This document shows positions 11,054 through 12,687 of a stretch of DNA of 64,000 nucleotides, in pieces; positions within the stretch are counted from its first letter, which is position 1, and each line of letters begins with the position of its first letter. Made by a program: the position numbers and the translations under genes. The notes beneath the pieces were generated by a model. The model saw only the letters and a list, made by a program, of their open reading frames with translations. It ran no database searches and was not told where the DNA came from. Source of the stretch: Ignavibacterium sp. (GTDB taxonomy: Bacteria; Bacteroidota; Ignavibacteria; Ignavibacteriales; Ignavibacteriaceae); assembly GCA_032027145.1 (NCBI GenBank), contig JAVSMP010000001.1:1144903-1208902 (forward strand). The letters run 5' to 3'.

Positions 11054-11153
11054 TACACCCGCTCAGGTATAATTTCTTAGAAAACTCTTGTATTTATACC
11101 CATACAGGTATATTTCAGCTCCTGATAAATATAATTACACTCGTAAAGGTATA
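11054..11153 (+). promoter_or_regulatory. Three hipB-type operator palindromes at 41-bp spacing
   Basis: Three 18-bp sites follow the pattern TA[TC]AC[CT]-N6-GGTATA at 11054-11071, 11095-11112 and 11136-11153. The middle one is a perfect palindrome (TATACC-N6-GGTATA). Their starts are exactly 41 bp apart, about four helical turns, and the last ends two bases before the hipB ATG. The E. coli HipB operator TATCC-N8-GGATA has the same 18-bp length. This supports autoregulation sites of the former hipBA operon. Confidence 0.65.
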
Positions 11154-11155
11154 AA

Positions 11156-11200
11156 ATGAGCAAGCTATCAAACTTTGTAAAAGAAAAAAGAGAAAAATAG
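11156..11200 (+). pseudogene. hipB: hipB antitoxin remnant
   Basis: ATG 11156 begins MSKLSNFVKEKREK and then hits a stop. This is the typical opening of a HipB-like Cro/C1 helix-turn-helix antitoxin, in which the peptide normally continues into the DNA-binding helices. The rest of hipB is missing. The operator-like palindromes remain intact directly upstream, and a hipA remnant follows. The 14-residue product cannot bind DNA. Confidence 0.55.
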
Positions 11201-11219
11201 ATTAACAATAGTAGGATAA

Positions 11220-11705
11220 TGGGGAAATTATATTTTAAAACCACCTGTTGAGCAATTTCCTGAGATGCCCGAAGTAGAGGATTTAACAATGTATCCTTCA
11301 GAATTATTAGGAATCAAAACAGCAGAACATTTATTGATCAAATTAAGATCTGGTGAACTTGCATATATCAGTAAAAGATTTGACAGGTTAAAATCTGAAA
11401 AACTTCATCTTGAAGATATGGCGCAAATAACCGAGATGCTAACAGCAAGAAAATACAGCAGTCCGATGGAAAAAGTTGGAAAAGCAATCTTAAAACACTC
11501 TGATTATGCTGGTAATGATGTAATAAGATTTTTTCAATTAACATTATTTTGCTTCATAACTGGCAATGCTGATATGCATTTAAAGAATTTTTCTTTATTA
11601 AAAAATTTAGATGGAAAGATAATACTTTCGTCTGCTTATGATTTACTATCAACAAAAATTCTTTACAAAGAATTGATTGAACAGAGATTGGATCGCTTAA
11701 AATAA
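11220..11705 (+). pseudogene. hipA: hipA toxin kinase remnant (N-terminal and internal deletions)
   Basis: The frame opens after a stop at 11217-11219 and reads GNYILKPPVEQFPEMPE, which is the middle of a HipA Ser/Thr kinase. It goes on with YISKRFDR, LHLEDMAQI and the catalytic loop GNADMHLKNFSLL, then AYDLLSTKIL. At that point it joins directly to YKELIEQRLDRLK, which looks like the extreme C terminus of HipA, so an in-frame block of roughly 70-90 residues appears lost. The N-terminal region is absent. An in-frame ATG at 11265 would give 146 residues. Intact HipA is about 410-440 residues and phosphorylates glutamyl-tRNA synthetase. This remnant is very unlikely to be active. Confidence 0.7.
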
Positions 11706-11778: not shown

Positions 11779-12687
11779 ATGAATTTATTAAATCCCAATA
11801 CACCTTTAATAGAAATATTTGATGATCTCTTTACAAAAAAGCAAATTCGAGTTTTTGTAAAGCGTGAAGATCTTACAGATCAGTATATCTCTGGTAATAA
11901 GTGGTATAAACTAAAATATAATTTGATTGAAGCTGAGAAACTTGGCTTTAGAACTCTTCTTACATTTGGTGGTGCTTTCTCAAATCATATTCACGCCGCA
12001 GCAGCCGCAGGGAAAAAATTTGGTTTCAAAACTATCGGAGTTATAAGAGGAGAAGAGCATCTGCCGTTAAATCCTACCCTGTCATTTGCTAATGAAAATG
12101 GAATGTATCTTGAATACATTGATAGAGCATCTTACAGAAAAAAATATGATCATGAATTAATCCAAAAATGGAAAAATAAGCATGGTGATTTTTATTTAAT
12201 CCCCGAGGGCGGATCAAATCATTTGGCTGTAAAAGGATGTGCTGAAATAATATCATCAATAAATATAAAGTTTGATTATGTATGCTCTGCCTGCGGTACC
12301 GGAGGGACATTAGCAGGTTTAATACTGGGTCTTAATAAAAATGCATTTGCATTAGGCTTTTCTGTACTAAAAAGCGGTGAGTTTTTGAATCAAAATATCA
12401 GCTCTTTTCTAAAATACTTTGATGCTGATGATTTTAAGAACTGGAAGATAAATTTGGATTTTCATTTTGGCGGATATGCAAAGGTAACTAAAGAACTTAT
12501 TGAGTTCTGCAATATTTTTTTGAAAAAACATAATATAACTATCGAACCAATTTATACCGGTAAAATGTTTTATGGATTATTTGATCTGATTAAAAGAGAT
12601 TATTTCCCAACGAATTCTTCAATTATCGCAATTCATACAGGCGGATTACAGGGGTTGGAAGGCTTAAAATTCAGAAAGAAGATATAA
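11779..12687 (+). CDS. D-cysteine desulfhydrase / ACC deaminase-like PLP enzyme
   Basis: This is a fold-type II pyridoxal-phosphate enzyme of about 302 residues. The Schiff-base lysine is in SGNKWYKLKYN (around residue 44). Typical family motifs are VKREDLTD, TFGGAFSNHIHAAAAAGKKFG and the phosphate-binding SACGTGGTLAG. The family deaminates D-cysteine or related amino acids, or 1-aminocyclopropane-1-carboxylate, and the sequence does not settle which. I chose the ATG at 11779 (MNLLNPNTPL). A TTG at 11761 would add six residues. The gene stands alone between the hipA remnant and a kinase gene. Confidence 0.8.
   Translation: MNLLNPNTPLIEIFDDLFTKKQIRVFVKREDLTDQYISGNKWYKLKYNLIEAEKLGFRTLLTFGGAFSNHIHAAAAAGKKFGFKTIGVIRGEEHLPLNPTLSFANENGMYLEYIDRASYRKKYDHELIQKWKNKHGDFYLIPEGGSNHLAVKGCAEIISSINIKFDYVCSACGTGGTLAGLILGLNKNAFALGFSVLKSGEFLNQNISSFLKYFDADDFKNWKINLDFHFGGYAKVTKELIEFCNIFLKKHNITIEPIYTGKMFYGLFDLIKRDYFPTNSSIIAIHTGGLQGLEGLKFRKKI

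Follow-up and report, generated by a model that had tools for sequence, protein, structure and literature searches.

A probable fossil operator array in front of a decayed HipBST-type toxin-antitoxin module in Ignavibacterium

The operator array and the broken genes

Multiple 18-nt inverted repeats, evenly spaced with a period of 41 bp, precede the remnant of a hipB gene in Ignavibacterium sp. In the window (the whole stretch of DNA analysed, 64,000 nucleotides) three sites of the form TAYACY-N6-GGTATA lie on the + strand at 11054–11071 (operator 1, TACACCCGCTCAGGTATA), 11095–11112 (operator 2, TATACCCATACAGGTATA) and 11136–11153 (operator 3, TACACTCGTAAAGGTATA). Starts are 41 bp apart in both steps, and 2 bp separate the end of operator 3 from the hipB ATG at 11156. 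The window sequence rests on assemblies, and two independent assemblies agree. A previous sequence-only reading of this DNA had reported the same positions, steps and gap, all of them correct, and had described three palindromes; the sites are there, but perfect 6+6 symmetry is a feature of operator 2 only, as one arm pair is broken in operator 1 and two in operator 3.

Site counts were obtained by pattern searches of the 3.67 Mb genome, with the reversed pattern as control. TAYACY-N6-GGTATA has 4 exact + strand matches, three of which form the array, so that the objection that such sites may be frequent genome-wide does not hold. The fourth match lies within a transporter gene, and this additional site might speak for a chance repeat in AT-rich DNA. 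Sites paired at a distance of 20–26 bp, however, occur nowhere in the genome outside this array and are absent (zero) from the control, and most relatives carry orthologous arrays at the same place, as detailed below. On these two grounds a chance origin is refuted, its residual probability being practically nil.

The hipB relic (11156–11200, + strand) retains the first 14 codons, MSKLSNFVKEKREK, followed by a stop. The hipT relic (11199–11705, + strand) encodes the toxin kinase from about RLTIVG on (HipA_C domain, E 4e-28), in a frame different from that of hipB, and is interrupted by an internal TAA stop at 11217. By comparison with intact genes, a first deletion took away everything between hipB codon 14 and mid-hipT, including the whole of hipS, so that the two truncated genes are now joined; a second one removed about 70 codons near the hipT 3' end, where STK is now joined to ILYKELIEQRLDRLK. 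No trace of hipS is found between the hipB and hipT relics, either in the window or in the near-identical sister genome IGN3 (CP053447.1, locus L034). With hipB truncated, hipS deleted, and hipT cut at both ends and carrying an internal stop, the locus is a pseudo-locus, not a working module.

In the closest intact relatives the gene order is hipB (~70 aa), hipS (~111 aa, HipA N-terminal domain), hipT (~310–320 aa), and therefore the module is assigned to the HipBST, not to the HipBA, type. hipS is present in all of these relatives (the congener G300, and loci L035, L005, L006 and L007). The first gene is an HTH repressor: the window hipB codons 1–14 are homologous to MSKLSDFVKEKRKK of G300, whose HipB matches TIGR03070 above the cut-off (E 1.4e-24). 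The G300 HipS matches Couple_hipA (E 5e-27), and the hipT orthologue, 310 aa long, features HipA_C only. Relic and orthologue alike correspond to a HipT, i.e. a toxin kinase with HipA_C but without N-subdomain 1. The label of a dead hipBA locus, given in the sequence-only reading, was right as to the broken genes and wrong as to module type; the two-gene type was rejected because hipS and hipT are split in the relatives, and operators of the TATACC-N6-GGTATA kind, with 40/41 bp steps, are unlike those of E. coli K-12. Over the final 54 bp of hipT, the window (11652–11705) shows 93% identity to two congeners (L135, 1996–2049; L137, 2067–2120); the remaining hipT is 84% identical to that of G300, a contrast which may reflect selection bias towards short matches.

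The array in intact relatives

Loci were gathered by using the toxin relic as query, and the DNA 5' of hipB was scanned for TATACC-N6-GGTATA, allowing up to 2 mismatches. The relatives, mostly metagenome bins, belong to Ignavibacteria, Bacteroidota, Chlorobiota, Kiritimatiellae, Lentisphaerae and other groups. At least one site was found upstream of hipB in 95 of the 98 non-redundant intact loci, and two to four sites in 90 (none in 3 loci, one in 5, two in 36, three in 45, four in 9). Intact relatives devoid of sites, which would have spoken against the assignment to hipB, are hence not the rule, and the view of the palindromes as hipB-type operators is borne out by the same array preceding hipB in these loci. 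Sites total 248, against 2.65 in Markov-resampled controls. Neighbouring sites are spaced by 40 or 41 bp in 139 of 152 cases, and the commonest gap between the last site and the ATG is 2 bp. Loci with two sites often hide a weaker third one, one step (−40/−41) upstream: a site with up to 4 mismatches was found there in 16 of 30 two-site loci, vs 1 of 240 control offsets. Similarly, 5 of 6 gaps of 79–82 bp hide a middle site with 3–4 mismatches. The family operator consensus reads TATACCCG-W-W-A-R-GGTATA.

The 41/41/2 layout of the window is ordinary within this set. In G300, where hipB, hipS and hipT are intact, sites TATACCCATTCAGGTATA and TACACCCGTAAAGGTATA are 41 bp apart and end 2 bp before the ATG. 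A different hipB-hipS-hipT locus, found in the congener G297 (L152), encodes a HipB with recognition helix GISLRSLVDIENG and is not preceded by TATACC-N6-GGTATA sites, a pattern in line with HipB and operator changing together. Searches of the literature yielded nothing relevant on HipB operators of the TATACC/GGTATA kind, and no description of the 40/41-bp step in FCB-type HipBST operators was found in the literature searched, though one may exist elsewhere; the conserved 40/41-bp three-operator array seems to be undescribed.

Operator 2 of G300 is flanked by a TTG and by the TAnnTTTG element TATTTTTG, which together we take to be a Bacteroidota-like promoter; TAnnTTTG is kept in G300 and L035. 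The corresponding putative promoter of the window spans 11088–11121 (+ strand, TTG at 11088–11090). Sequence comparison places the former −7 element at 11111–11118, which now reads TATTTCAG and differs again in IGN3; the window promoter is for this reason probably dead. A TTG/TAnnTTTG promoter at operator 2 common to the whole family was considered and rejected, the form being exact in 6 of 85 arrays only, and the proposed placement, a minority pattern in the family, is accordingly to be viewed as local. A sigma-70 scan detected nothing at the expected place (2 matches, vs 5.6 expected).

The relic lies directly upstream of a PLP-enzyme gene (11779–12687) on the same strand, and no terminator-like site is found between the two. 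Promoter and operators might have been co-opted to drive this gene, now unrepressed. We regard such a takeover as improbable, in view of the change of the −7 element from the TATTTTTG of G300, different in the window and in IGN3. In congeners, moreover, the PLP-enzyme gene resides behind other genes without any hipBST, and hence needs no such promoter.

Decay of the module and possible users of the sites

IGN3 and the window are about 97% identical at the DNA level across the locus, and each carries the two deletions as well as the internal stop; the death of the module consequently predates their split. In addition, the hipB start codon is lost in IGN3 (ATG to ATA). The operator block diverges at 3 of 100 positions (3.0%), the dead flanks at 3.2–3.3% (16 of 497 in the upstream intergenic DNA, 18 of 552 in the relic). 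In the operator arms taken alone 1 change was counted in 36 positions, with ~1.2 expected, numbers at which a neutral test has low power. No selection on the operators was seen in this comparison, a weak test with 36 arm positions, and the block diverges like dead DNA. Codon changes relative to IGN3 are 5 synonymous and 11 nonsynonymous in the relic, 24 and 18, respectively, in the neighbouring intact gene.

Erosion of the operators has already begun. The T found at left-arm position 6 of operator 3 occurs in 2 of 231 functional sites, and G300 has a C; in IGN3 the left arm of operator 1 reads TAAACC, i.e. one arm base has been lost relative to the window, besides the loss of the ATG. The sequence-only reading had regarded both operators and spacing as intact: the 41-bp steps are indeed kept, the arms are not entirely so. 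Its suggestion that decay may be recent is favoured by the neutral-like divergence of the operators and by the deletions common to IGN3, and the sites would still be readable because the module died recently.

The remains of another hipBST module were identified in the congener G298 (L137, 2052–2120), adjoining proS. There, a single operator-like site, TATACCCGTCAAGGTACA, abuts the last 54 nt of hipT. hipBST has been lost independently in two lineages of one genus.

It had also been supposed that another HipB-like repressor in the cell might use the sites. Selection would in that case keep the operators, and the array can still be made out, sites and spacing alike, in a genome which encodes further XRE-type proteins. 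However, no intact HipA or HipT is found elsewhere in the window's genome, HipA_C being confined to the relic, and no protein scores above the HipB family cut-off (71.65 bits), so an intact cognate HipB is missing. The best match, 43.5 bits, looks by eye like a HigA-type antitoxin next to a RelE/HigB-like gene; the recognition helices compared, GVQKSQISKLE in this match vs GVGLRFIRELE, are unrelated, and no TATACC-N6-GGTATA site is found near its gene. A surviving HipB paralogue was rejected on account of these weak HTH matches. A regulon of single sites was rejected as well, since sites with up to 1 mismatch are not in excess genome-wide (39 matches, vs 44 in the control). IGN3 retains the array, yet features one HTH match only, weaker than the best one of the window's genome (the IGN3 genome is 90% complete), and the operators have diverged to the same extent as dead DNA. 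Lacking both intact HipA, HipT or HipB and an excess of single sites, a trans-acting repressor is unsupported, and selection by such a protein appears very improbable. The putative HigA-like antitoxin and its RelE/HigB-like neighbour (L153, 962–1713) are absent among the IGN3 matches.

Alternatively, the array could act as a sink for the HipB of an incoming hipBST, carried by a mobile element or a mate, and disturb its autoregulation. The array is still near consensus, and intact hipBST modules circulate in the genus (G300, G296). Selection is not seen, though, a single chromosomal array would titrate few dimers only, and no mechanism favouring this role was found; we assign to it a very low likelihood.

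A probable fossil array and its known counterparts

The three palindromes most likely once served the autoregulation of a HipBST-type toxin-antitoxin module and persist as its fossil operators, still readable because decay is recent, and now drifting (probability about 0.92). In such a module hipB encodes the repressor, hipS the antitoxin and hipT a toxin of the kinase kind. A dimer of HipB is expected, by homology, to sit at each site in living relatives; binding is predicted from position, conservation and the analogy with the Legionella HipBST. Bound at operator 2, HipB would cover the promoter, and at operator 3 the beginning of the hipB transcript; the operon would be repressed, by analogy with the Legionella and E. 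coli HipBST modules. The array normally comprises three sites repeated every 40/41 bp, the last one ending 2–3 bp before hipB. Before the window's species and its sister IGN3 separated, a deletion had fused hipB codon 14 to mid-hipT, removing hipS, and a second one had shortened hipT near its 3' end. The operators, presumably devoid of function at present, would drift like the surrounding DNA, and be readable only since little time has elapsed.

The locus itself is ordinary, another decayed toxin-antitoxin module of a known kind. It is of interest because it points to a rule that holds across the family, with three operators for HipB repeated every 40/41 bp and ending at the hipB start, by which HipBST operators can be predicted from sequence, and as a warning that young decay can make seemingly preserved regulatory DNA misleading. 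A step of 40/41 bp corresponds to ~3.9 turns of DNA. The array raises the testable question of a cooperative assembly of HipBST on DNA: the chances are even that the near-invariant repeat, which recurs in many phyla, reflects a geometry that is required, at which touching HipBST complexes form a cooperative repressor chain. The 71-bp layout of Legionella and the 28/39/28-bp layout of E. coli are unlike it, and the window would harbour a natural dead copy of it.

HipBST is widely present in the FCB group (PMC10653801). The closest known counterpart is the module of Legionella pneumophila (Lpg2368–2370), where hipB-hipS-hipT genes are preceded by three operators at even intervals, each 18 nt long with arms of 6 nt, the nearest ~24 nt before hipB, and binding of HipB to the operators has been shown by gel shift (PMC10653801). 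Among PDB entries, too, the relic is matched best by Legionella HipT (8ezr, E 1.5e-30; also 7vkb and 7wcf). The two arrays, compared by layout, differ in spacing, as the Legionella operators are separated by 53 bp (71-bp step; PMC10653801), those described here by 22–23 bp (period 40/41), and in symmetry, which is lost in O2 and O3 of Legionella (PMC10653801) and perfect in the middle site of the window. The HipBST module of E. coli O127:H6 has the same gene order, with an HTH repressor and a split HipA (PMC6581861, PMC10627512), and HipB represses its own promoter (PMC10627512). Its toxin is distant, in contrast, as the relic matches E. coli HipT (7ab3–7ab5) at E 1e-7, vs 1e-30 for Legionella HipT, and no operator of the TATACC-N6-GGTATA kind has been reported for it. 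In the HipBA module of E. coli K-12 a HipB-type repressor acts on four 18-bp inverted repeats located before hipB. These differ from the array described here in having 5-nt arms (TATCC-N8-GGATA) and steps of 28/39/28 bp, as measured in the present analysis, and the toxin, HipA, is made in one piece and is matched by the relic at E 2e-3 only.
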